Source: an uncultured Trueperaceae bacterium (GTDB lineage: Bacteria > Deinococcota > Deinococci > Deinococcales > Trueperaceae). From it: a stretch of 64,000 nucleotides of DNA. Made by a program: the position numbers and the translations under genes. The stretch lies in the NCBI GenBank assembly GCA_937873495.1, contig CALMXZ010000015.1, positions 1 through 64,000 of the forward strand, read 5' to 3'. The notes below the pieces were generated by a model. That model searched no databases and was not told where the DNA came from. It saw only the letters and a list, made by a program, of their open reading frames with translations. Position 1 is the stretch's first letter, and each line of letters begins with the position of its first letter. Positions 19,514 through 58,881 of the stretch are shown here, in pieces.

Positions 19514-21217
19514 CTAGGCGTCCTCCTCCGCGGCTGGGGCGCGGTACCCGATAGGGTAGCGCGGGCCGACGTGGACCGGCAACCGACCGGCGGGAGTCAG
19601 TTCTCCGCGGATGGCGCGGATCACGGATCCGAAGTAGGTGGATTGGTTGCCGAACCAACCACGCTCGCCGTACCCGACCAGGAACGTGCCCTCTTCCGGC
19701 AGCCTTCGCACGAGGTGTGGGTTGCCGAAGGCCACTACCACGGCCGCCCCCTGCTTCCTCATGAGGAGCTGCTCGAGCACGTCCATGTCGGTCGCCCGTA
19801 ACGGCGCGGGCTCGCCGTACTTGTCGCGTTGCACGAACAGGGACACGAGCAGCAGTTCTGCCCCGGCCGCGGCCTCGAGTGTGGCGGCTCGGTCGGAGGC
19901 GTTCGTGCCGTCCGTCAAGGTGTAGCTGCGCGACCCGGGGAACGCCTGGGCCAGTTCCTTGGCCAGCGCCAGCGGCCCCGGGTCGCCGGGGGTCTTCTCG
20001 ACGCTCACGTTCACCAGATCGTAGGTTCCGTCAGGGCGCTCCAAGAGGCTCGGAGTCGGGCCAGTGCGCCTGAGGCATGTAAGGGAGCGATCCGCTACTT
20101 CCTGGGCAACCGCCACATGGTCGGGTGTGCCCACGAGGGTCTCCACTAGGCTCTCGTCGACCAGCCGCCGCTCGAACAGCCCGAGTCGCACCTTCACGGC
20201 CAGTACGCGCCGAACGGCGTCGTCGATCCTGTCGCTCGGGATGCGGCCGGATCGGACGGCTCCGACGAGGGCGGCGATCGTCGCGATCGGGTCTCTGGGC
20301 TTGAGGAGCATGTCGTGGCCGGCTTCGAAGGCCAACACGGCGACTTCTTCCGCCCCGAAGCGCGCCACGACGTGGTCGTACCACAGGTCGTCGGACGTCA
20401 AGATGCCGTTGAACCCGAGACGATCCCTGAGCCACCCGCGGGCAAGTCGCTCTTCGACACTGGCGGGCAGCTCGGAGCCTTCTGTCAGGGCAGGCACTGC
20501 GATGTGTTCGGTCATAACGAAGTCGACGCCGGCGTCTATGGCGTGTTTGAAGGCCGCCAGCTCAGTCCGCTCGAGTTCGTCACGTGGTTTGTCCAGGAGG
20601 AGCCAGCCTGGCCTTCCAGGCATCGGGCGAACGTCCCCGCGCCCCGGAAAGTGCTTCGCAGTTGCCAACATCCCGTGATCGTGGAGACCACGGACGTGGG
20701 CGCGGACGAGGCGGCCGAGCAGTCCGATTTCCGCGCCGAAGGACCGGACGCTCTCGGCGGGGTTGGTCGGGTCGGGCGAAACGTCGACCACAGGACAGTA
20801 GGTCAGGTGTACCCCGAGGGCTCGTCCTTCGGTCGCCGCGATCGAGCCTGCGCGGTACATCAACTCTTCCGACCCGGCGGCCGCGAATGCCATGTTGGCA
20901 GGGAACTCGGTGGCGCCGTCGACCTGCTGGCCGACCCCGCCCTCGTAGTCCGAGGCAAACAGCAGCGGCAACTCCGCAACCGCCTGGAGGCGGTTGGTCA
21001 GACGAGCGACCGCCGCCGGGGTGCCGCCGTAGACTACGAAGGACCCAACGCCATAGTCGCGGGCGAACTCGAGCCACTCTGCCAGACGCTGTTCGTCGAG
21101 CCCGACCGCGGCGTCGGGAATAGGGACGGTTACTAGCTGGGCCACCTTGCGATCCAGTGAGAGTCCGGCGAGGTGCCTCTCCACCACGATCTCCAGCGCT
21201 TGCGCGGAGCTTGTCAT
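19514..21217 (-). CDS. Glycoside hydrolase family 3 (beta-N-acetylhexosaminidase-like)
   Basis: 567 residues. It has the GH3 TIM barrel with SDYEGGVGQQV, CPVVDVSPDP, TAKHFPGRGD (the KH-FPG substrate loop) and GFNGILTSDDLWYD, whose first Asp of SDD is the nucleophile position. A C-terminal GH3 alpha/beta sandwich follows (TLTDGTNASDRAATLEAA). There is no signal peptide, so it should act on imported glycosides. Three bases separate it from the kinase gene, making it the last gene of the isomerase-kinase-hydrolase operon. Specificity cannot be fixed; the barrel is closest to NagZ and related N-acetylglucosaminidases. Confidence 0.85.
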   Translation of the reverse strand: MTSSAQALEIVVERHLAGLSLDRKVAQLVTVPIPDAAVGLDEQRLAEWLEFARDYGVGSFVVYGGTPAAVARLTNRLQAVAELPLLFASDYEGGVGQQVDGATEFPANMAFAAAGSEELMYRAGSIAATEGRALGVHLTYCPVVDVSPDPTNPAESVRSFGAEIGLLGRLVRAHVRGLHDHGMLATAKHFPGRGDVRPMPGRPGWLLLDKPRDELERTELAAFKHAIDAGVDFVMTEHIAVPALTEGSELPASVEERLARGWLRDRLGFNGILTSDDLWYDHVVARFGAEEVAVLAFEAGHDMLLKPRDPIATIAALVGAVRSGRIPSDRIDDAVRRVLAVKVRLGLFERRLVDESLVETLVGTPDHVAVAQEVADRSLTCLRRTGPTPSLLERPDGTYDLVNVSVEKTPGDPGPLALAKELAQAFPGSRSYTLTDGTNASDRAATLEAAAGAELLLVSLFVQRDKYGEPAPLRATDMDVLEQLLMRKQGAAVVVAFGNPHLVRRLPEEGTFLVGYGERGWFGNQSTYFGSVIRAIRGELTPAGRLPVHVGPRYPIGYRAPAAEEDA

Positions 21218-21220
21218 GCT

Positions 21221-22744
21221 TTACCCCTTCGAGGCGGTGGTGCCCGCCCTGGACAGTTCGTGCATGATTCCCGCCGTGGCCGTGTATAGCTCCCGATACT
21301 GGCGGTAGCCGGCGTCATAAGTGGCCCGGGCTGTCTCCGTTGGGCGGACCACGTGTGACCCGTCCGCCCAGTCCTTCAGGTCGCCACGCTCGACGATGCC
21401 TACGGCCAGCCCGGCTAGGAACGCGTCGCCGTAGCTGGCCCCTAGCGTGGTCCTCGGCACTTCCTGCTCGCGGCCGATCGCATCGCTGACGATCTGCAAC
21501 CACGTGTCTCCGGTGGTGCCCCCGCCAACTGCCACGATCCGCTCGGCCACGCCAACACCGTCTGACAAGGTCTCGATATTGTGGCGTATGCCGTAGGCCA
21601 CGCCCTCGAGGACCGCCCTGAAAACGTGGGCACGCGTATGGTGGAGCGAGAGGCCAATGATTGCGCCACGGGCGGACGGGTCGTTGATGGGTGTCCTCTC
21701 GCCGTTGAAGTATGGCAGTACCAGCAGGCCGGAGCTGCCTGCACCGACCTCTGACGCCTCGCGAAACAGCTCCAAGTACGCTGTCTCGTCGGGCAGATCC
21801 CTTGCCAGCTCGTCTCTGAACCACCTCGTGATAGAGCCGCTCGTGGCCATGCCCGCCGCGGTGGTGTGTTGGCCCTCGAATGCCCCTGGCAGAGTCCAGG
21901 TCAGGGGATGCGGCCGAGGGCGATCGGTGACCAGGATGAAGAAGGTGCTACTCCCGTACATGATCATCAGGTCGCCCGGTTGGACTACGTTTACGCTGAC
22001 GGCCTCGCTCAGGGCGTCCACGGTGCCTATCGTGACCGGCGTACCCGGGACGAGACCGGTTTCGGACGCCGCCTTTGCAGTGACGCCACCTGCGAGATCG
22101 CAGCTCCATCCGGGACGGGGGAGCAGGTCGAGATCGGTGATCCCTTCGCTGAACCTCTCCGACCATCCGAGTGCGACCGGGTCGTACAAGGGCATGTAGT
22201 GGGCGGCGGTGTGGTGGTCGATGACGTGTTCACCCGTCAGGCGTTGGACGAGGTAACTGCTCGCCGTGGTGAGGAAGGCGGTCTGCTCCCAGACCGTTGG
22301 TTCATTTCGCCGCAGCCAGAGGATCTTCGGCCCGATCGCCTGGCTGGTCAGGTGCATCCGGGAGAAATCGAAGATCGACTCGGCGCCCCAGCGTTCGGTG
22401 AGGATCCTGATCTCGATCGAAGCACGAGTGTCTACCCCGTAGAGGATGCCGGGCCGCAACGGTCTGCCTCTGCTGTCAAGGGGTAGCAGGCAGGGTCCGA
22501 TGGCGCTGACCCCGACAGCGGCTACATCAGAACCGGCGTACGGGGCGCCGTCCAACAGGTGATGACAGAGGAGAGCCGTATCTGACCACCAGACGGAGTC
22601 GGCGTCCTGCTCGGCCCACCCTGGGTGTGGGAACGAGACGCCGTGCTGGACCACGGCCTTCCGGAGTACCTCGCCGCTCGGAGTGACCAGGACACCCTTG
22701 CTTGAGTAGGTGCCTACGTCGATTCCCAGCAGCAGTTCCGCCAT
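21221..22744 (-). CDS. FGGY-family carbohydrate kinase
   Basis: 507 residues. It starts MAELLLGIDVGTYSSKGVLV, the phosphate-binding loop of the xylulose/gluconate/fuculose kinase superfamily. GWAEQDADSVWW and LPYFNGERTPINDPSARG are FGGY features, and VAVGGGTTGDTWLQIVSDA is the adenosine motif. ATG 22744 overlaps the isomerase stop (TGATG), so a longer frame upstream is antisense. It should phosphorylate the ketose made by the adjacent isomerase. Confidence 0.88.
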   Translation of the reverse strand: MAELLLGIDVGTYSSKGVLVTPSGEVLRKAVVQHGVSFPHPGWAEQDADSVWWSDTALLCHHLLDGAPYAGSDVAAVGVSAIGPCLLPLDSRGRPLRPGILYGVDTRASIEIRILTERWGAESIFDFSRMHLTSQAIGPKILWLRRNEPTVWEQTAFLTTASSYLVQRLTGEHVIDHHTAAHYMPLYDPVALGWSERFSEGITDLDLLPRPGWSCDLAGGVTAKAASETGLVPGTPVTIGTVDALSEAVSVNVVQPGDLMIMYGSSTFFILVTDRPRPHPLTWTLPGAFEGQHTTAAGMATSGSITRWFRDELARDLPDETAYLELFREASEVGAGSSGLLVLPYFNGERTPINDPSARGAIIGLSLHHTRAHVFRAVLEGVAYGIRHNIETLSDGVGVAERIVAVGGGTTGDTWLQIVSDAIGREQEVPRTTLGASYGDAFLAGLAVGIVERGDLKDWADGSHVVRPTETARATYDAGYRQYRELYTATAGIMHELSRAGTTASKG

Positions 22745-24372
22745 CAGGTATGCCCTATCCCGCAGAGGTGCACGCGTAAGCCCAACTCCGCGAGAACGGC
22801 GCCCTTGATGCGCAGGGCCTCGTCTGCCGACACCCGGTCCGGCGCGTAGGCGACCTGCACGTGGTTCGACTGGTGGCGTGCCATCATCTGATCGCGGCTT
22901 ACACCGTCCAGGACGGCATGCATGATTGGCCAGGCGTACGTCGTCCGTCGCCGCCTGCGTTCCGTTTCGTCGACTGGCAGCTGGACGGCGCGCCCGCGCC
23001 CCAGGTCGACGTTCAGCGCGTCGTCTGCCACGTAGACGCGTGACCAAACGAGTTCGCCCGGTCGACACACCCCTGCGAGGGTGCTGCCTCCCCGAGGGAA
23101 GTACATGGCAGGCTGACGGAAGCCGTGCGCTCCTGCATAGCCTCCGCTCAGGTGGGAAGCCGGGACCGCCCCAGAGATCTGCCAGGTCCAGACGTAGGTG
23201 GGGCGCCCATCGAGGTCGTACTCCTCGCCCCACCTCACGTCATGCAGTGTGTTGCTGGGGTCGAGTCCGAGCGACCGCCACACGAGATCAGTTATCACGC
23301 CGTCCACGGCGCTGCCTTCGTCGACCTCGTTGAAATGAGTTAGCGCTCGTCCGGCGTACAGTTCCCGAGTGCCGCCACGCTCTCGCACAGGTGGGCGATC
23401 GGGGTTGTTAAGGAGGCCCTCGACGAGGTCGCTGGCGGGTGCCATGTCCTTGAGGCCCTGTTGGTACTGGATCCCGATGGCGTCGCAACCGAAGGCGTCC
23501 GCCATCCTCGCTGCTGCGATGTACATCCGCCCCTGGTCCACCAACTGACGCTCGGTCAGGTCGGACTCTTCGCTCGTACCAGTCTCGAAGCGCATGCCGC
23601 GGCCCCGGAGCCAGGCGATCACTGCGGCCGCCTCGGCCTCGGTGACCAGGCCCATCTCGGCTAGGAGTGCAGATTGGGATAGGCGTTCCTTGAAGACCCC
23701 AAGACGGTTGAGAAAGCGGTCCTCGATCACGGCGTTGGACATGCCCATACACCCTTCGTCGAAGACGCCGATGATCACCTTGTCACGCCTCACGCCGTCC
23801 GCGATCTTTCGGGCAGTCCGGACCGATGCCTCCGGCAGCAGAGTCGTGTCGAACGCCGTGACATGGCTCGAATCGTGAGCGATCCTGCCGGTGCCGAGCC
23901 AGGAGTCAAGCGCCTCGCCGAAGTGCACGTCGTCGAACGTCTCGCTCCAGATGGTCGAGTACGGCACTTGCGCCTTGGTGAGGCACGCGTTGAGGTTGAG
24001 TAGCCCCACGAGCCCGGGCCAGGTGCCGCTCCAATTTGCCACCGTCAAGATAGGCGCCGCGCGCTCCAGTAGGCCTGGAAGCACGTGGTGGCTGTACTGC
24101 CAGGCAGCGATTGCCACCACCACCCAAGCGTCGGGTGGTAGCGAATTCGTGACGTCCAGGCCGTCCCTTTGGGAGCCAATAAAGCCGTGGCCCCTTTCCG
24201 GCGAGTACCGATGAGCCCTAACGAGCTCGATACCGCGGTCCCTGAACGCCACTTCGAGCAGCGACTCGAGTTCGTGCTGGGCAGGCCAACACTGCCGGTT
24301 GGCGCTCTCGCGCTGGTCGCCGCTTGCGATCAAGTAGACCCGGTCGGGGTAGGCCGATGGCGGGTTGGGCAT
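22744..24372 (-). CDS. L-fucose/L-arabinose isomerase-family protein
   Basis: 542 residues from ATG 24372, with GAGGAG about ten bases upstream. It has the FucI-type fold. The C-terminal RHQSNHVQVAYA matches the metal-binding histidine region of FucI, and FNEVDEGSAVDGVIT matches the Glu/Asp metal-site segment. An aldose-ketose isomerase step feeding the FGGY kinase is the natural reading. FucI itself is about 590 residues, so the substrate may differ from fucose. It is the first gene of the leftward operon, divergent from lacI. Confidence 0.82.
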   Translation of the reverse strand: MPNPPSAYPDRVYLIASGDQRESANRQCWPAQHELESLLEVAFRDRGIELVRAHRYSPERGHGFIGSQRDGLDVTNSLPPDAWVVVAIAAWQYSHHVLPGLLERAAPILTVANWSGTWPGLVGLLNLNACLTKAQVPYSTIWSETFDDVHFGEALDSWLGTGRIAHDSSHVTAFDTTLLPEASVRTARKIADGVRRDKVIIGVFDEGCMGMSNAVIEDRFLNRLGVFKERLSQSALLAEMGLVTEAEAAAVIAWLRGRGMRFETGTSEESDLTERQLVDQGRMYIAAARMADAFGCDAIGIQYQQGLKDMAPASDLVEGLLNNPDRPPVRERGGTRELYAGRALTHFNEVDEGSAVDGVITDLVWRSLGLDPSNTLHDVRWGEEYDLDGRPTYVWTWQISGAVPASHLSGGYAGAHGFRQPAMYFPRGGSTLAGVCRPGELVWSRVYVADDALNVDLGRGRAVQLPVDETERRRRRTTYAWPIMHAVLDGVSRDQMMARHQSNHVQVAYAPDRVSADEALRIKGAVLAELGLRVHLCGIGHT

Positions 24373-24426: not shown

Positions 24427-24440
24427 TGCAAACGTCGTCA
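24427..24440. promoter_or_regulatory. Putative LacI operator 1
   Basis: TGCAAACGTCGTCA lies just downstream of the isomerase -10 box. It differs at only two of 14 positions from the site at 25853-25866 and fits the TGNAANCG...CA pattern of LacI-family operators. Confidence 0.55.
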
Positions 24441-24443
24441 TAA

Positions 24444-24472
24444 ACGATGGCATCAAAACCAGCCGATGTCAA
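24444..24472 (-). promoter_or_regulatory. Promoter of the isomerase-kinase-GH3 operon
   Basis: Minus strand: TTGACA (24472-24467), 17 bases, CATCGT (24449-24444). Transcription would begin near 24437, inside the putative LacI operator. Confidence 0.5.
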
Positions 24473-24485
24473 CAGCCGTGGCTGA

Positions 24486-24514
24486 TTGACCGGGCGTGGC
24501 GCGCTCGGTATCCT
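24486..24514 (+). promoter_or_regulatory. Promoter of the lacI gene
   Basis: TTGACC (24486-24491), 17 bases, TATCCT (24509-24514). The predicted start of transcription falls on or next to GTG 24521, and no ribosome site precedes it, so the mRNA is probably leaderless. Confidence 0.65.
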
Positions 24515-24520
24515 CATCCT

Positions 24521-25543
24521 GTGCCGCAATCGGTTTCGAGGACGGCGACCCTGATGGACGTTGCGTCGAGGGCTGGGGTATCCTCTTCGACCGTTTCTCG
24601 CACGCTCACATCGCCCGGTATGGTCGCGCCGAGCACTCGCAACAAGGTGTTGCGGGCTGTCGCCGAACTCAATTACCAGCCGAACCAGTTGGCTCGCAGC
24701 CTTCGTAACCAGCACACGACTACCATCGGGCTCATCCTGGCGGACATCCTCAACGAGTTTCACGCACAGGTGGCGCAGGGCGTCCAGGACGCGGCCTTCA
24801 CGCATGGACTCACCGTCATGCTGTCCAGCACGAACGAGGACGCCAGACGCGAGGCTGCCTTTCTCGGGGAACTTCAGAGGCACAGGTTCCGCGGTCTGAT
24901 AATCGTTCCCACCGAGCACACCGCGCGGCACCTCCAGAACCTTCTCACCACGCCCATAGTGGAGGTGGACAGGTCGTCAGGAGTGCGTGGCGCCCACGTG
25001 GTACTCGCGGAGAACCGCGAGGGTGGGCTGAGCGCTGTCCGGCATCTTGTGCAGCTTGGTCACAAGCGCGTTGCGACGATCAGCGGGAAGCCGGGCGTGA
25101 CGACGGGCGCGGAGCGATTGAGCGGATACCACGACGGGATGGCAGAGGCCGGGTTGCGGGTCGAACCGGGTTGGGTCGTGAGCGTTTCACAGCACGATGA
25201 GGCTCACGGTTACGACGCTGCCATGCGACTCCTGCGACTACCGGGAAAGCGTCGCCCGACCGCCGTCTTCGCGTTCAACAACGAACTCACTGCAGGCCTG
25301 CTACGAGCGGTCAAGGCGGTCGGGATGCGCGTTCCAGACGACATTTCCATCGTTGGGTTCGATGATTCGCGGTGGGCCCGCTTGATGTCACCGTCTCTGA
25401 CCGTAGTGACCCAACCCGCCTACGAGATGGGTTACCTGGCCGGGGAGCGGCTAGTCTCCTTGCTCGATCGACCTAACGTCCCGGGGAGTGTGACGCGCCT
25501 ACCGACTTCTCTGATCGTTCGGGAGTCGACTGCGGCGCCGTGA
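24521..25543 (+). CDS. LacI-family transcriptional regulator of the glycoside island
   Basis: 340 residues. The N-terminal helix-turn-helix is TLMDVASRAGVSSSTVSRTL with the hinge helix YQPNQLARSLRNQ. The periplasmic-binding-like sensor domain has the usual PTAVFAFNNELTAGLLRA and DISIVGFDD motifs. The frame extends upstream, but the promoter places transcription at GTG 24521. It sits between the two operons it probably represses; matching putative operators occur beside both. Confidence 0.88.
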   Translation: MPQSVSRTATLMDVASRAGVSSSTVSRTLTSPGMVAPSTRNKVLRAVAELNYQPNQLARSLRNQHTTTIGLILADILNEFHAQVAQGVQDAAFTHGLTVMLSSTNEDARREAAFLGELQRHRFRGLIIVPTEHTARHLQNLLTTPIVEVDRSSGVRGAHVVLAENREGGLSAVRHLVQLGHKRVATISGKPGVTTGAERLSGYHDGMAEAGLRVEPGWVVSVSQHDEAHGYDAAMRLLRLPGKRRPTAVFAFNNELTAGLLRAVKAVGMRVPDDISIVGFDDSRWARLMSPSLTVVTQPAYEMGYLAGERLVSLLDRPNVPGSVTRLPTSLIVRESTAAP

Positions 25544-25814
25544 AGTATCTCTGCACGCTGCCCGCCCGGCGGGCGGTCCGACCGGTGACGTATGAGGCGG
25601 TCGAATGTCCGTTCGGACGACCGAGCGAGGCGAGGCGTGACCTGCGTGCTGGCCGGGGCAGATGGTTGTGCCGGACCCATGGCGGCCTAGGGCGGGGGCT
25701 CTGCCCGAGTAGCCGCCCAGCCGCCAGTCGCCCGGGGGGCTGAGCGGTCCCGCCCTCGCCGAGGAACCAACGGTGGGTCTGAAGTTAGGCGGGGTTCTGG
25801 GCCGGAGTACAGGA

Positions 25815-25843
25815 TTGACACGTCTGGGGATGCGGCGTATCCT
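25815..25843 (+). promoter_or_regulatory. Promoter of the peptide-type ABC transporter operon
   Basis: TTGACA (25815-25820), exactly 17 bases, TATCCT (25838-25843). It is the best sigma-70-type promoter in the window. Confidence 0.75.
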
Positions 25844-25852
25844 TCAGGCGTC

Positions 25853-25866
25853 TGCAATCGTTGTCA
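25853..25866. promoter_or_regulatory. Putative LacI operator 2
   Basis: TGCAATCGTTGTCA, a partial palindrome with the central CG typical of LacI-family sites. It covers about +3 to +16 of the transporter transcript and matches operator 1 at 12 of 14 positions. Confidence 0.6.
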
Positions 25867-25977
25867 CTGCATCGTCGCGCCTGAAGTCATATGTCACGAC
25901 CCTCCAGGAGACTGGGAGCCGCTCATGTACTCGCCCGTTCATCACAAGGCCCGCCGCCCGTTGCTGCGGGTGACGCC

Positions 25978-26901
25978 ATGAGTCAGTGGGTTGCGTGGCG
26001 GCTGGTGCGAATGTTCCTTGTGTGGATCGGTGTGACGCTGGTCGCGTTCCTCTTACTCCGGTTGACCGGAGATCCTGCCAGAGTGGTATTGGGCGAGTTC
26101 GCCTCTCCTGCGGCCATGGCGGCGTACCGAGCCGAACAGGGGCTTGACCGACCGTGGCCGGCACAGTACGTGAGCTTCGTATCAAAGGCTCTTCGGGGGG
26201 ACCTCGGCACCTCGTTGCGATTCCGAGAGCCCAACCTGAAAGTGATCGTCGAGCGCCTGCCTGCGACTCTTGAGTTGGCGCTGGCGAGCCTGCTCATCTC
26301 GGCGCTCGTCGGAGTTCCGTTGGGTGTGGTGACGGCTCTCAGGCGCGACTCGGCGTTTGATGTGGTGGCACGCGGGCTCGTGCTCCTGGCCTTGGGCATT
26401 CCCAACTTCTTCCTGGCAATCTTGTTCGTACTGCTGTTCGGCGTGGAGCTCGGTTGGCTGCCGACCGGTGGCCGGGGTGGTCTCGGGCACCTCGTGATGC
26501 CCGCCGTGGTCCTCAGCTTCCTACTCCTACCTTTGACGGTTCGCATCACGCGTTCCTCGGTGCTTGACAACCTATCGATGGATTACGTGCGCACTGCCCG
26601 CGGCAAGGGGGTGGGAAGTCGTGCGATTGTTTGGCGCCACGTGCTACGGAACGCATCCCTTCCGGTCGTCACGGTGCTTGGCGTGCAGTCGGCATTGCTT
26701 CTTTCGGGTGCCGTGGTGACGGAGACCATATTCTCGTGGCCGGGTATCGGGAGGTTGCTCGTGACGTCGATCACGGGACGCGACTTTCCGCTCGTTCAGA
26801 GCGCGATCCTCGTGGTGTCTACCGGTGTCGTCCTGATTGGGTTCTTCGTGGACTTGTGCTACGCGGCCCTTGATCCGAGGCTCGGTCGGTCCCGTGGCTG
26901 A
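25978..26901 (+). CDS. DppB-like ABC transporter permease
   Basis: 307 residues with six membrane helices, of the oligopeptide/nickel/glycoside permease family. N-terminal features are DPARVVLGEFASPAAMAAYRAEQGLDRP (here shortened: AYRAEQGLDRPWPAQY) and SLRFREPN. The cytoplasmic EAA loop is MDYVRTARGKGVGSRAIVWRH near 200-220. ATG 25978 begins the family-style N-terminus. It overlaps the second permease by 8 bases. No ATP-binding subunit gene is in this cluster, so the ATPases must come from elsewhere in the genome. Confidence 0.88.
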   Translation: MSQWVAWRLVRMFLVWIGVTLVAFLLLRLTGDPARVVLGEFASPAAMAAYRAEQGLDRPWPAQYVSFVSKALRGDLGTSLRFREPNLKVIVERLPATLELALASLLISALVGVPLGVVTALRRDSAFDVVARGLVLLALGIPNFFLAILFVLLFGVELGWLPTGGRGGLGHLVMPAVVLSFLLLPLTVRITRSSVLDNLSMDYVRTARGKGVGSRAIVWRHVLRNASLPVVTVLGVQSALLLSGAVVTETIFSWPGIGRLLVTSITGRDFPLVQSAILVVSTGVVLIGFFVDLCYAALDPRLGRSRG

Positions 26902-27814
26902 TGTGCCGAGGTTCCGGTGGTTGGGAGTTGCGCGGAGGCTCGGTTCCCGGAGGGCGACCCGCGTCGGCCTGGTGTTCCTAGCCCTGTTCCTGGCCCTCGG
27001 CGTTTGGCCAACCAGTTGGCTGCCGCACGATCCGACTGAGGTGAACCTTGGTCTCGCCAACCGGCCTGGCCTGTGGGCCGGCAACTGGTCCCAGCCGCTG
27101 GGGACCGACTTCCTGGGCAGGGATCTTCTGTCAAGGTCTGTCTACGCTGCGCGCCTCACTCTCGTCATTGGTCTGGGTGCGGTCACGATTGCGACCCTGG
27201 TGGGCACGGTCGTCGGGCTGCTGGCTGGGTACTTCGCCGGATGGGTGGACGAAGTATTGAGCTGGCTAATCGATGTTCAACTGGCCTTTCCGATGATCGC
27301 CTTGGCGGTGGCTGTCATCGCTGTGCTGGGCGGGAGCCTCACCAGCCTGATCGGGGTGCTGGCCGCCACGAGCTGGTTCACGACTGCGCGCGTTGTCAGG
27401 GCTCAAGTGCTGGCCGTCAAGGCGAGCCTCTTCATCGAGGCTGCCGGGGCGCTTGGTGCCGGGTCGGTTCGCACCGTCTTCCGCCATATCTTGCCCAACG
27501 TTGTGTCTCCGATCCTGGCGGTGGCGACTTTTGAGATGGCACGCCTTGTGCTGACGGAGTCGGCGCTCAGCTTCCTCGGCCTCGGCGTGAGTTCTCCGCA
27601 GACAACTTGGGGAGCGATGATCGGCGACGGACGTGCGTACGTCTACGAGTCGTGGTGGGTGGCGACCGTCCCAGGACTCCTGATCGCCGCGCTTGTTATC
27701 GCCTTCAACTTCGTCGGTGACGGTCTCCGCGATGCCATGGATCCGACGTCTTACGCGTCATCCGGAAGGACAGGGGGTGGCGGCCTGCGCAGTGAACAAG
27801 CGACTGAACCGTAG
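26894..27814 (+). CDS. DppC-like ABC transporter permease
   Basis: 306 residues with six membrane helices. The family features are PLGTDFLGRDLLSRSVYAAR (about 68-87) and the EAA loop around EAAGALGAGSVRTVFRHILPN. The start is GTG 26894, overlapping the end of the first permease; GTG 26903 is an alternative. It is the partner of the DppB-like subunit. A Gly-rich tail follows the last helix. Confidence 0.88.
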   Translation: MADVPRFRWLGVARRLGSRRATRVGLVFLALFLALGVWPTSWLPHDPTEVNLGLANRPGLWAGNWSQPLGTDFLGRDLLSRSVYAARLTLVIGLGAVTIATLVGTVVGLLAGYFAGWVDEVLSWLIDVQLAFPMIALAVAVIAVLGGSLTSLIGVLAATSWFTTARVVRAQVLAVKASLFIEAAGALGAGSVRTVFRHILPNVVSPILAVATFEMARLVLTESALSFLGLGVSSPQTTWGAMIGDGRAYVYESWWVATVPGLLIAALVIAFNFVGDGLRDAMDPTSYASSGRTGGGGLRSEQATEP

Positions 27815-27859
27815 AGAGCATGTGGCCCAGAATCCAAGCGATGCTAGAGAGGTCTAACC

Positions 27860-29383
27860 ATGATGCGAAACGCTGTTCGTTTATGCGCTGTGATAGCGGC
27901 CGCTGCGGTGTTGGGTTGTGCGACCGCACAGAGCCGGTTGATTATCGCCCAGTCCGTTGACCCGCCCACCCTCAATCCGTTCGATACGACCGCCCCCTAC
28001 ACCAGCGTCTATGCGCAAGTATGCGAGCCGTTGATGTTTTGGGACACGGACGAGAACGGGGGAGCCTACATACGCATGCACCTGGCGACTTCGTACGAGT
28101 GGGTTGACGACCTAACTATTCGCCTCAAGCTGCGTGATGGCGTCACCTTCAGCAACGGCGAACCCTTCGACGCCACGGCCGCCAAAGTGAGTCTAGAGAA
28201 ACTCTTCGGGGCCTTCAATTACAGCCAATGGCTCGAGGGACTGCTTTCCGAAGTCCGCGTGGTTGACGAGGACACCGTTGACGTGGTCCTGACGAAGTCT
28301 GCCGGGTTCGTGCCGTCGGTACTCGCGATGGGCAGCTTCCAGATCGCTCCTGCAGATTTCGCAGCGCGCGGGGAAGACGCGTTCAACCAATCTCCGGTTT
28401 GCACTGGTCCCTGGATGGTCGGTGAGCACGTGCGCGACGACCACATAACGCTTCGGGCGAACCCCAACTACTGGGGCGGTGACGTCCTGTACGATGAAAT
28501 CGTTTATCGCATCATCCCGGACGACAACGCACGCGTAGCCGCGCTGGAAGCCGGCGAGGTCGATATGGCCGTTAACGTGCCGTTGTCCGCCGCCGACAGG
28601 ATAGAACGCAACGGGGCATTGGAGCTCCTGGCCGTTCCGAGCCTCAGGCAGTTCGCGACCTTCTTCGACACCGACAACCCCAAGGCCGTCCCGCTGCTTG
28701 ACGTAAGAGTAAGGCTGGCACTCAATTACGCTGTCGACCGTGCGGCACTGTGCTCGCAATTGTTCGCGGGGCGCTGCACGCCTATGGCCGGTCAGTTCCT
28801 AACCAACCAGCACTCCGGTTTCGATCCCGACCTTGAGCCCTACCCCTTTGATCCACAACGGGCTCGGGCTCTCCTGGCGGAAGCGGGCTACCCGAACGGC
28901 TTCGCGCTCGAACTTACGTACACTGCTGGTCGTTACCCGCAGGACCGACAGGCCGGCGAGGCAATAGCCGCATACCTGCGGGCTGTGGGGATAGACGTTA
29001 CGGAGCGGACGGTCGACTTTCCCGAGTGGGCGAGGCAGTTCGATGCCCGGCCCAGGGAAACGACTGCCTTGTACACGGTCGGGTTCCTGTTCGGCCAGGA
29101 CGGCTACTTGGCCCTCCTCGGCTACACGGAAGGGAATCGCTTCCGGACCAGCGTGATGCCCGAAGGGTTCGATGCCGGGATGGCCGGCGCTGCCACGGCC
29201 ACCAACGAGGCCGATAGGATCGGTTTCCTCCAGCAGGCTATGCGGGCCATCAACCAGGAGCCCTTCGCGATCTATCTGTACGCTCTCGACGACCTGTACG
29301 GGGTTCGCAAGGGTGTTACCGGCTTCAAGCCTCGCGGTGACCAGACAATCCGCCTACTCGACATGGGCGTCGCAAGGCACTGA
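27860..29383 (+). CDS. Family 5 extracellular solute-binding protein (DppA-like)
   Basis: 507 residues. An N-terminal signal of about 24 residues contains VLGC, a possible lipobox, but cleavage before Q further on would also fit this genome. The mature part shows the family 5 order: PPTLNPFDT near the start, the LRDGVTFSNGEPFDA motif, VVLTKS, ANPNYWGG, and RVRLALNYAVDR. Family 5 proteins bind peptides, nickel or plant and animal oligosaccharides. With GH3, a kinase and a dipeptidase nearby, a sugar or sugar-amino-acid conjugate is plausible. Confidence 0.88.
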   Translation: MMRNAVRLCAVIAAAAVLGCATAQSRLIIAQSVDPPTLNPFDTTAPYTSVYAQVCEPLMFWDTDENGGAYIRMHLATSYEWVDDLTIRLKLRDGVTFSNGEPFDATAAKVSLEKLFGAFNYSQWLEGLLSEVRVVDEDTVDVVLTKSAGFVPSVLAMGSFQIAPADFAARGEDAFNQSPVCTGPWMVGEHVRDDHITLRANPNYWGGDVLYDEIVYRIIPDDNARVAALEAGEVDMAVNVPLSAADRIERNGALELLAVPSLRQFATFFDTDNPKAVPLLDVRVRLALNYAVDRAALCSQLFAGRCTPMAGQFLTNQHSGFDPDLEPYPFDPQRARALLAEAGYPNGFALELTYTAGRYPQDRQAGEAIAAYLRAVGIDVTERTVDFPEWARQFDARPRETTALYTVGFLFGQDGYLALLGYTEGNRFRTSVMPEGFDAGMAGAATATNEADRIGFLQQAMRAINQEPFAIYLYALDDLYGVRKGVTGFKPRGDQTIRLLDMGVARH

Positions 29384-29397
29384 AGAGTGCTCGCCCC

Positions 29398-29432
29398 GGC
29401 CCCGGGATGGAGTTCCTCTCCACCCCGGGGCC
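29398..29432. terminator. Stem-loop after the solute-binding protein gene
   Basis: GGCCCCGGGATGGAG (29398-29412), loop TTCCT, and CTCCACCCCGGGGCC (29418-29432): 14 of 15 positions pair. It may partially terminate, or protect the binding-protein mRNA, before the oxidoreductase gene. Confidence 0.65.
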
Positions 29433-29459
29433 GAGCGCATCCGAAAGACAGTGAGCGTG

Positions 29460-30479
29460 ATGGCTAAAGAACTCAATTGGGGGGTCCTCGGAACCGCAGA
29501 TATTGGCCTACGGGCTGTGCTGCCCGCTATCCGGCGAGCTGAAGGAGGCAAACTGGTCGCTGTCGCGAGTAGGGATATTGCTAAGGCGCGGGCGGCGGCG
29601 GATACCCTGACCATACCGGTGGTTCATGGCAGCTATGAGGAGCTGCTGAGGGACCCAAGTGTTGACGCGGTCTATATTCCGCTTCCCAACTCGCTACACG
29701 TGGATTGGGCGGTTCGAGCGATCGAGCATGGCAAGCACGTGCTATGCGAGAAGCCTATGGCGACCACCACGGCGGGCGTCGACGAGATCCGTGAGGCAGC
29801 AGCCAGGATGGGGGTTCTCGCAGAGGAAGCGATGATGTACCGGTTCCACCCCCAGACCGAACTGATGCTTGACATGGTTAGGTCCGGGGGTCTAGGTGAC
29901 GTTCATTTGGTCACGGCCTCGTTCACCTACGGACTCGGGAGACAAGACGATATCCGTCTGAGAAGCGCACTCGGTGGCGGTGTGATGTACGACGTTGGCA
30001 GTTACTGCGTTCACGTGGCCCGAAAGGCGTTCGGTGCCGAACCAGAGGCCGTGTTCGGTTGGGCCCGTGTCGGTCCTGGTAGCGATGTCGACGAGGTGTT
30101 CGCCGGCACCATGCGGTTTCCTAACGACCGTATGGCGACGTTCGTATGTAGCCTGCGAGGCCCACGCGCGCAGTCGTACACGGTCACCGGGACGGATGCC
30201 AGCCTGACCGCCCCGCTCCCCTTCGCTCCGGGGACGGAGGATCGTGTCCTCATCGTGAAGCGCGGCTGGCGCAGAGAAGACGTGCGCGAGGAGCGACTCG
30301 TGGTGAACGGCACCGATCAGTACCAGGTGATGATCGAGGACTTCAACAGGCGAGCGCGTACCGATACGCCCCCCGAGACAGATTTGACCGATACCAGGGC
30401 GAACCTGACAGCCGTCTGTGGGCTGTTGGAGAGCGCCAAGACCGGATGCATGGTGCCTATCCCGGCGCAAGGAGAATAG
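29460..30479 (+). CDS. Gfo/Idh/MocA-family NAD(P)-dependent oxidoreductase
   Basis: 339 residues. The Rossmann start is WGVLGTADIGLRAVLPAI, with VAVASRDIAKARAAA. The EKP motif (HVLCEKPMATT, catalytic Lys) is near residue 95, and GGGVMYDVGSYCVH matches the active-site helix. It oxidises or reduces a sugar or cyclitol. It stands fourth in the transporter operon after the stem-loop. ATG 29460 was chosen because the domain begins directly after it. Confidence 0.88.
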   Translation: MAKELNWGVLGTADIGLRAVLPAIRRAEGGKLVAVASRDIAKARAAADTLTIPVVHGSYEELLRDPSVDAVYIPLPNSLHVDWAVRAIEHGKHVLCEKPMATTTAGVDEIREAAARMGVLAEEAMMYRFHPQTELMLDMVRSGGLGDVHLVTASFTYGLGRQDDIRLRSALGGGVMYDVGSYCVHVARKAFGAEPEAVFGWARVGPGSDVDEVFAGTMRFPNDRMATFVCSLRGPRAQSYTVTGTDASLTAPLPFAPGTEDRVLIVKRGWRREDVREERLVVNGTDQYQVMIEDFNRRARTDTPPETDLTDTRANLTAVCGLLESAKTGCMVPIPAQGE

Positions 30480-30480
30480 A

Positions 30481-31521
30481 GTGATCCCAGACCAGGTCTC
30501 CAACCCTACCGCCTTCCACGCGAATGCACTGGTGATAGATGGATTGCAGGCGGCCCCCATGACGGCCGAGCATTTCGAACGGCTGCGTCTCGGTGGTGTC
30601 GACGCGGTGAACTACACCACTGCTTCGATTACGCACGAGTTCGCCGAAGCCGCCCTGGATATCTTGCGCCTAAGGAACACGGTTGCTCGCCACCCAGGCA
30701 GGGTCTTGGTTGTTGAGCATGCTGACGACATCCTCGAGGCGCATAGGTCCGGCAGGACCGGCCTGATAATCGGCCTTCAAAGCGCCAAGCCCGTCATGGA
30801 CGACGTGGCGTATGTCGAAGCCCTTCACTACCTCGGGGTACGCATAATCCAACTGACGTATAACGAACGCAATCTCATAGGCGACGGCTGCGTTGAGCGA
30901 GCGAACGGCGGCCTGAGCCGGTTCGGGCGTCGAGTGGTCGCCGAGATGAACCGGCTTGGGGTCCTGGTCGACATATCGCATTGCGGAGAACGCACTTCGC
31001 TTGACGCGATCGAGGCATCGACGCTGCCGATTGCCGCAACACACTCGAACGCCAAGTCCGTCACGCCCAGCCCTCGCAACAAGACCCCGGAGGTTATCCG
31101 GGCCCTGGCTGACCGCGGCGGGGTGATCGGCGCGGCCTTCTGGGCCCCCATGGCCTACCGGGAGGCCAATACTCGACCCAAGTTCTCTGATTTCCTTGAT
31201 CACGTGGAGCGGCTCGTCGAAGAAGCGGGCATCGACCACGTCGGAATCGGTTCTGACCTTGGTGAAGGCGAGTCGCGGGAGTACTACGAGGGCATGTTCG
31301 CCCGTGGTGGCGGGCTGTATCCCGAGGTGACGGAGCTCCTGGGCGACTGGTACGACTTCGACGGCCGGATGGTCGAGGGGCTCGAGTCTACGGTAGCCCT
31401 CCCGCTCGTGACGGCCGGCCTATTCCAGCGCGGCTTCAAGCAGGACGACATCGCGAAGCTCCTGGGCCTGAACTTCTTGAGGGTGCTGCGCCAAGCGTGG
31501 GCCTCTACATCGCCCGCATGA
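30481..31521 (+). CDS. Membrane-dipeptidase-like peptidase (M19 family)
   Basis: 346 residues starting at GTG 30481, with AAGGAG seven bases upstream. It has the M19 amidohydrolase fold: VIDGLQ near the start (the usual DGHND metal motif is altered), GLIIGLQSA, LGVRIIQLTYN, VDISHCG, and ATHSNAKSVTPSPRNKTPEVIRA with the metal-site His. The canonical HxD at the N-terminus reads DGLQ, so the first metal pair may be lost or rearranged. Renal-type dipeptidases hydrolyse dipeptides. Its place in a sugar-uptake operon suggests a sugar-linked dipeptide or another amide. Confidence 0.82.
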   Translation: MIPDQVSNPTAFHANALVIDGLQAAPMTAEHFERLRLGGVDAVNYTTASITHEFAEAALDILRLRNTVARHPGRVLVVEHADDILEAHRSGRTGLIIGLQSAKPVMDDVAYVEALHYLGVRIIQLTYNERNLIGDGCVERANGGLSRFGRRVVAEMNRLGVLVDISHCGERTSLDAIEASTLPIAATHSNAKSVTPSPRNKTPEVIRALADRGGVIGAAFWAPMAYREANTRPKFSDFLDHVERLVEEAGIDHVGIGSDLGEGESREYYEGMFARGGGLYPEVTELLGDWYDFDGRMVEGLESTVALPLVTAGLFQRGFKQDDIAKLLGLNFLRVLRQAWASTSPA

Positions 31522-31549
31522 CAGTGGTGTGCGTGCTTCGCTCCAGCGG

Positions 31550-32464
31550 ATGAGGGTCCTACTGCTCGGGGGAAGTGGCTTCCTCGGATCCGCTATTGCC
31601 CGGCGTGCCCTACAGGCTGGTCATGACGTTTGGAGCGTGAGTCGCGGGGCGAGGCTCGCCCCGGAGGGGGTACGCGGCATCGTCGCCGACAGGCATGACC
31701 ACGACGCCCTAGCGTCCAATGTGGGTCGCCTTACGGGTCCATGGGACCTGGTGGTGGACTGCATTGGTTTCGACGCTGCAGACGCCGAGCAGGACGTCAC
31801 GTTGTTCCGGGAGGTAGCGCGGCACCTGGTGTTCGTTTCGTCGGATGCCGTGTTCGATCCGAGCGTGGGTAGGTTTCCGCTCTCGGAGCACGCCGGTTAC
31901 CAGAGTAGTGGCTACGGTGGCGGGAAACGTGCAGCAGAGGTGGTTCTCGAACACTCCGATGTTCTCGATATGCAGTGGACCGTGCTCCGCCCTACCCACA
32001 TCTATGGCCCTGGCTCTGAGCTGGGCTGTCTACCATGGCATCTACGCGATCCACGCCTGTTGGGTAGGCTGTTGGCCGGCGATCCGCTGCGGCTCGTGGC
32101 GGGCGGCAGCATCCTCCAACAGCCGGTGTACGTGGACGACGTGGCCGACCTGGCACTGAGTTGTGCCGGTGCGAGGCGGGCCCACCGCGCGCACGTCCTG
32201 GCTGTTGGGAAGGAGATGGTGGAGGCGCGCGAGTACTACCGCCTGATAGCCGACGCGCTGGGGGTAGACCTCCAGCTTGAGGAGGCTGACATGGGTGGCT
32301 ACCTTACGGCGAACCCAACCATGCGGTCCGTGCTGACGCACCGCGCTTACGGCGACCAATCTGCTTCGCTGCGGGCTTTGGGTCTGGAGCCACCCTCGAC
32401 GACCCTGAGCGACGGTATCCGCGCTCATGTCGACTATTTGATGGCCTCGCGACCGCTAGTCTGA
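31550..32464 (+). CDS. NAD-dependent epimerase/dehydratase family protein
   Basis: 304 residues. It begins MRVLLLGGSGFLGSAIARRA, an extended-SDR Rossmann loop. The expected YxxxK is replaced by the GYGGGKRAAEVVL segment, which retains Tyr-x3-Lys spacing, as in atypical SDRs. RPTHIYGPGSE and PVYVDDVADLAL are the usual downstream motifs. It acts on a nucleotide sugar or other sugar. It is the last gene of the island; start ATG 31550, weak ribosome site. Confidence 0.82.
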   Translation: MRVLLLGGSGFLGSAIARRALQAGHDVWSVSRGARLAPEGVRGIVADRHDHDALASNVGRLTGPWDLVVDCIGFDAADAEQDVTLFREVARHLVFVSSDAVFDPSVGRFPLSEHAGYQSSGYGGGKRAAEVVLEHSDVLDMQWTVLRPTHIYGPGSELGCLPWHLRDPRLLGRLLAGDPLRLVAGGSILQQPVYVDDVADLALSCAGARRAHRAHVLAVGKEMVEAREYYRLIADALGVDLQLEEADMGGYLTANPTMRSVLTHRAYGDQSASLRALGLEPPSTTLSDGIRAHVDYLMASRPLV

Positions 32465-57837: not shown

Positions 57838-58881
57838 TCACGGCGCACTCTCCCTCACGATCAGTTCCGGCGCGAAGGTCTTGTCCGTCGGCTTCCTGCC
57901 GCGCTGCAGGGCGAAGATCGTCTCCACCGCCAGGCGGCCGAGCCCGTACTTCTCGATGCGCAGTGTCGTCAGCGAGGGCGCGACGGCGCTGGCCATGCGG
58001 ATGTCGTCACAGCCGACCACTGCTACGTCCTCAGGCACGCGTAGGCCGGCCTCTCGTAGGGCGCGCACGGCGCCGAGTGCTGCCAGGTCGTTGTAGGCGA
58101 CGATGCCGTCGAAGCCGGGACCGCCCGCGCGCGCTTGCGCCGCCCAGCGTGACGCCGCCTCGTAGCCGGCGTCCTCGACGGGCTCGCAGTGCGTCAGGAG
58201 CGCGTCGCTCACGCTCACGCCCGCCTCGCGCATAGCGGCGAGGAACCCCTCGCGCCGGTACCTGGCGCTGGCCGAGCGGTCCGGTCCGCCGAGGAGCGCC
58301 AGGCGTTTGCGGCCGCGTTCCAGCAGATGCCCGACGGCGAGGTGGGCGCCGAGGAGGTCGTCGACCATCAGGCTCACGGCCGGCCCACCCGGGACCTGGC
58401 GGTTGATGAGCACCGAGGCCGGGTGGGCCGACAGCAGGTCGGTCAGCTCGCGGTCGGGGAGGCGCGCGCTGCAGACGATCACCCCGTCGACCCGGTGCCC
58501 CGCGAGGTTGCGTAGGGCGGCGCGCTCGCGCGCCTGGTCCTCGACGGCGTTGGCGAGCGCCACGGTGTAGCCGGCGGCCCAGGCGGCGTCCTCCGCCCCA
58601 CGGACGATCTCGGGAAAGAAGGGGTTGGTGATGTCGGGTACGACGATGCCGATGGTGCGCGTGCGGCCCTGCGTGAGGGAACGCGCGAGCTGATTCGGCT
58701 GGTAGTCGAGTTCCTCGATGGCCCGGCGAACGCGCTCGCGCGTCGCCTCGCTGACGCGGCCCGTGCCGTTCACGACGCGTGAGACGGTCATGGTCGACAC
58801 GCCCGCGACCGCCGCGACGTCGGCGTTCGTGACGGTCCTCGGTCTGGAGCCGTCACCGCGTCGCCCGGGCCGGTCGGTCAC
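57838..58881 (-). CDS. LacI-family regulator of the hexuronate operon
   Basis: 347 residues. The helix-turn-helix is TNADVAAVAGVSTMTVSRVVN, with hinge YQPNQLARSLTQ. The sensor domain has GIVVPDITNPFFPEI and GFDGIVAYNDLAA. GTG 58881 lies eight bases after the SDR stop. It sits inside the operon and so controls its own synthesis; a LacI-type palindrome lies before the first gene. Confidence 0.9.
   Translation of the reverse strand: MTDRPGRRGDGSRPRTVTNADVAAVAGVSTMTVSRVVNGTGRVSEATRERVRRAIEELDYQPNQLARSLTQGRTRTIGIVVPDITNPFFPEIVRGAEDAAWAAGYTVALANAVEDQARERAALRNLAGHRVDGVIVCSARLPDRELTDLLSAHPASVLINRQVPGGPAVSLMVDDLLGAHLAVGHLLERGRKRLALLGGPDRSASARYRREGFLAAMREAGVSVSDALLTHCEPVEDAGYEAASRWAAQARAGGPGFDGIVAYNDLAALGAVRALREAGLRVPEDVAVVGCDDIRMASAVAPSLTTLRIEKYGLGRLAVETIFALQRGRKPTDKTFAPELIVRESAP

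Follow-up and report, generated by a model that had tools for sequence, protein, structure and literature searches.

The window analysed here, a stretch of 64,000 nucleotides of DNA from an uncultured Trueperaceae bacterium, contains a gene for a LacI-family regulator of 340 amino acids (24521–25543, plus strand) situated between two predicted operons. The protein has the architecture of its family, with a PF00356 helix-turn-helix domain at residues 10–55 (61.9 bits, cut-off 27) and a PF13377 effector domain (137 bits), and scored below every cut-off of the NCBIfam equivalog models. A second LacI-family gene is present at 57844–58842 on the minus strand; its product is 39% identical to the first and falls outside the clade described below, and its upstream region is without a TGCAA palindrome.

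The first gene of the divergent operon, on the minus strand, encodes a fucose-isomerase-like sugar isomerase (22744–24372, ATG start at 24372). Its match to Fucose_iso_C (PF02952) is weak and below the cut-off (23.4 bits; cut-off 29.3), no PDB relative was found at E 1e-3 either by sequence or with a 16-sequence profile, and from its sequence the protein looks like a member of an uncharacterised isomerase family. The family is kept in 21 genomes of the class, at 55–64% identity to the window's protein. The second gene (21221–22744, minus strand) encodes an FGGY sugar kinase of the xylulokinase-like type (PF00370/PF02782; TIGR01312 below cut-off), and a glycoside hydrolase family 3 gene (GH3; 19514–21217, minus strand; PF00933), separated from the kinase gene by a gap of 3 bp, is probably the third gene of this operon.

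On the plus strand downstream of lacI are the genes for an Opp/Nik-type ABC transporter, comprising two permeases and a family 5 binding protein (25978–29383; PF19300/PF00528/PF00496). The genes that follow, for a GFO/IDH/MocA oxidoreductase, an M19 dipeptidase and an NAD-dependent epimerase (29400–32464, plus strand; PF01408, PF01244, PF01370), are collinear and closely spaced and probably form the remainder of the transporter operon. No ATP-binding subunit is encoded in the operon (25978–32464), so the transporter must rely on an ATPase encoded at another locus. The same genome has nine related family 5 binding proteins. A short ORF, MYSPVHHKARRPLLRVTP (25927–25981), follows an AGGAG-like ribosome site, and its stop codon overlaps the permease ATG (ATGA), arranged as if for translational coupling.

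Promoters and 14-bp sites on either side of lacI

Putative operator 1, TGCAAACGTCGTCA (24427–24440, plus strand; TGACGACGTTTGCA when read along the minus strand), overlaps the predicted transcript start of the isomerase operon, while putative operator 2, TGCAATCGTTGTCA (25853–25866, plus strand), lies directly downstream of the transporter promoter. A preliminary description of this DNA reported that the two agree at 12 of 14 positions and that each lies just past a -10 box with 17-base promoter spacing; the coordinates proved exact, two of the 14 positions differ, and both spacers are 17 bp, with gaps of 3 nt on the isomerase side and 9 nt on the transporter side. The isomerase operon promoter (24444–24472, minus strand) reads TTGACA (-35, 24472–24467), 17 bp, CATCGT (-10, 24449–24444; poor, 3/6), 3 nt and operator 1. 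The transporter operon promoter (25815–25843, plus strand) reads TTGACA (-35, 25815–25820), 17 bp, TATCCT (-10, 25838–25843), 9 nt and operator 2. The promoter of lacI itself (TTGACC-17-TATCCT, 24486–24514, plus strand) ends six bases before the GTG, a position from which the lacI mRNA is probably leaderless.

Taken by itself, the 12/14 agreement is weak evidence and is not beyond chance, since, when the two intergenic regions were shuffled 500 times with dinucleotides preserved, 28.6% of the trials contained a 14-mer pair agreeing at 12 or more positions. The pairing within the window is thus not significant on its own, and what lifts the sites far above chance is evidence derived from orthologues (see below). 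It had also been proposed that many unrelated copies of the 14-mer in the genome would speak against operators. Pattern searches of the organism's own genome (3.44 Mb) with the joint pattern TGCAAWCGTYGTCA returned only two exact matches, both of them the window sites, together with two matches with one mismatch and 28 with two mismatches; as the reversed control pattern gave 23 matches in all, the genome holds background only beyond the two exact sites. With no other exact copy present, the proposed objection does not apply. The one-mismatch sites (C7:57761 and C16:108681) were rejected as extra regulon members, both being inside coding ORFs, as was a two-mismatch partner near C16:108681, the C16 pair sitting within paralogous opp genes.

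Predicted operators of the orthologous LacI group

A tree of LacI orthologues collected across the class placed the window LacI in a clade of 26 members (support 0.997). In each of the 25 other members, the 350 bp upstream of lacI contain one or more sites of the TGCAAWCGWTTGCA form (eight or more of the 10 half-site positions matching), against a background of about 0.02 such sites per 350 bp at other loci of the same class, and most members have two copies 84–103 bp apart. The perfect TGCAAWCGWTTGCA palindrome, searched for without regard to the regulator, was found 30 times in 111 genomes; in 24 cases it lies at most 200 bp upstream of this group's lacI (22 in the clade and two in its sister lineage), and one further copy stands 20 bp from a less closely related LacI paralogue. 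This provides a class-wide consensus for the operators of a single group of LacI orthologues, an even palindrome with a central CG; both window promoters carry asymmetric versions of it in which the TGCAA half is intact and the GTCA half degenerate, one half of operator 1 being strongly so.

In one related genus, two perfect copies 85–103 bp apart precede lacI (L036, L037, L138–L142, L144 and L148), which suggests cooperative or looped repression there. The helical phasing of paired sites (spacings of 84–103, 210 and 98 bp) was weighed as a sign of looping and dropped, being too inconsistent to support the claim. Wider LacI relatives from named genomes were set aside as distant paralogues only (identity at most 38%). 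No site was found in G005, where lacI, isomerase and kinase genes run in one direction; its LacI (41% identity) falls outside the clade and its contig stops at lacI.

The group's lacI stands beside fucose isomerase and sugar ABC genes in G037, and with RbsB-like binding proteins, permeases and xylulokinases in G056 and G040. As sugar isomerases, FGGY kinases and sugar ABC genes are its neighbours across the clade, sugar-inducible repression is the best reading of its role.

The divergent pair of isomerase (minus strand) and lacI (plus strand) is also present in two other genomes, G027 and G033 (isomerase 60–61%, LacI 58% identity). Their isomerase promoters are laid out as TTGACG-18-CACAAT, 3 nt and operator, and hold TGCAAACGTTGTCC and TGCAATCGTTGTCA, respectively, each 3 nt past the -10 box as in the window. 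The G033 isomerase operator is identical to the window's transporter-side site, and the same sequence precedes lacI in G074, G079 and, reversed, G083; given its recurrence in these four genomes, the degenerate GTCA half is probably an inherited feature. Another 20 genomes of the class have isomerase orthologues, and where these are without this LacI as divergent neighbour no comparable upstream site was found. For the transporter binding protein, the class has no orthologue that exceeds 40% identity, so the transporter appears to have joined the regulon in this lineage only.

A symmetric weight matrix was built from the orthologous sites without any window sequence; it was seeded with the TGCAA half and is to that extent not fully independent of the original 14-mer observation. 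Among 63,987 window positions the matrix placed 25853 first and 24427 second, and these ranks were unchanged after asymmetric variants were dropped from it. The site at 25853 scores 17.4–19.6 bits compared with a simulated mean maximum of 13.4 (an excess of 4–6 bits), and, with no orthologous promoter for the transporter, it is on this motif quality that the transporter side rests. The site at 24427 is weaker: chance alone would give 0.4–0.9 scores of that height per 64 kb, and the argument for it therefore comes from position and conservation.

A weak candidate for a third operator, CGCAATCGGTTTCG (24525–24538, plus strand), lies right after the lacI GTG and has matrix rank 5, with a score that 64 kb would be expected to yield 1.3–1.5 times by chance. 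A better-matching site, GACAATCGATTGCA, is found at the equivalent position, directly after the lacI start codon, in G027 and G033. The lacI promoters of these two genomes are also similar in layout to that of the window. Autoregulation through the site at 24525–24538 is plausible, and part of the similarity there could be amino-acid conservation. In the survey of Ravcheev et al. (2014, PMC4052901), 72% of LacI-family regulators are autoregulated.

Proposed regulon and alternative explanations

At a probability of roughly 0.87, we consider both 14-mers to be operators of the LacI encoded between them, which would repress rather than activate the two operons, be released by an inducer and possibly regulate its own gene. 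A LacI dimer would bind each quasi-palindrome, with its central CG, intact TGCAA half and degenerate other half, at or slightly downstream of the transcription start. This would block initiation both at the divergent isomerase–FGGY kinase–GH3 operon and at the Opp-type transporter operon downstream. The repressor would leave its sites on binding a sugar or sugar phosphate as inducer, and the weaker site at the presumed leaderless lacI start may add autoregulation. The two-operon regulon of the preliminary description is in this way supported by the clade operator and by an isomerase-site position kept in two genomes, and is refined by a weak third site at lacI and a transporter side that depends on motif quality.

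It is improbable, in our judgement, that the sites are real LacI-family operators bound by another LacI paralogue, alone or with the local protein. The genome has 12 LacI matches, including the one at 57844–58842 of the window, the TG-AA-CG-TT-CA core is common to LacI-family operators, and related sites also stand upstream of several other paralogue clades in the class; however, isomerase promoters carry the site only when an orthologue of this lacI lies divergently beside them, and the perfect sites mostly precede this group's lacI genes. Somewhat less credible again is a regulon of one operon and lacI, in which the isomerase-side site alone is functional and the transporter-side match coincidental. 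The frequency of 12/14 pairs in shuffles and a transporter promoter without orthologue in the class fit such an account, whereas the transporter-side site has the higher matrix score and rank, is shared letter for letter with the G033 isomerase promoter and lies 9 nt past a good promoter. That both matches are chance resemblances without function agrees with their modest within-window significance and is made very unlikely by the phylogenetic footprint and the unbiased genome searches.

With both sites taken as operators of the local LacI, the locus is a standard local LacI regulon, and the view of how such regulators work is unchanged. Joining the isomerase–kinase–glycosidase operon and a separate transporter operon in one regulon would narrow the search for their common substrate. 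We put forward only tentatively, as a possibility we would not bet on, that a transporter operon of the Opp/Nik type, together with its genes for an oxidoreductase, an M19 dipeptidase and an epimerase, has been captured by a sugar-responsive LacI clade next to a kinase and an uncharacterised enzyme resembling fucose isomerases. If it has, the locus would specify a catabolic pathway not yet described, in which a peptide-type transporter takes up the sugar or glycoconjugate substrate.

Relation to known LacI-family systems

In the literature on LacI regulons in this lineage, nothing relevant was found beyond the 2014 survey (PMC4052901), in which most operators of the family are palindromes of even length centred on CG. 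The locus resembles the local sugar-catabolism regulons described there in a regulator that adjoins its predicted targets, an even palindrome centred on CG, sites close to promoters, and sugar isomerase, kinase and transporter genes as targets, with autoregulation a possible further parallel, but differs from them in its asymmetric operators and in one target of Opp/Nik type instead of a typical sugar transporter. With CcpA/PurR/RbsR-type repressors, the nearest among solved structures and NCBIfam models, the window LacI has domain architecture and operator grammar in common, although it scores below the equivalog cut-offs, has other target genes and appears local rather than global. The lacI clusters of G056, G040 and G037 share with the window an orthologous regulator, the same operator and a sugar ABC transporter accompanied by either an FGGY kinase or a fucose isomerase, whereas the window isomerase comes from a different family and its transporter is of the Opp type.
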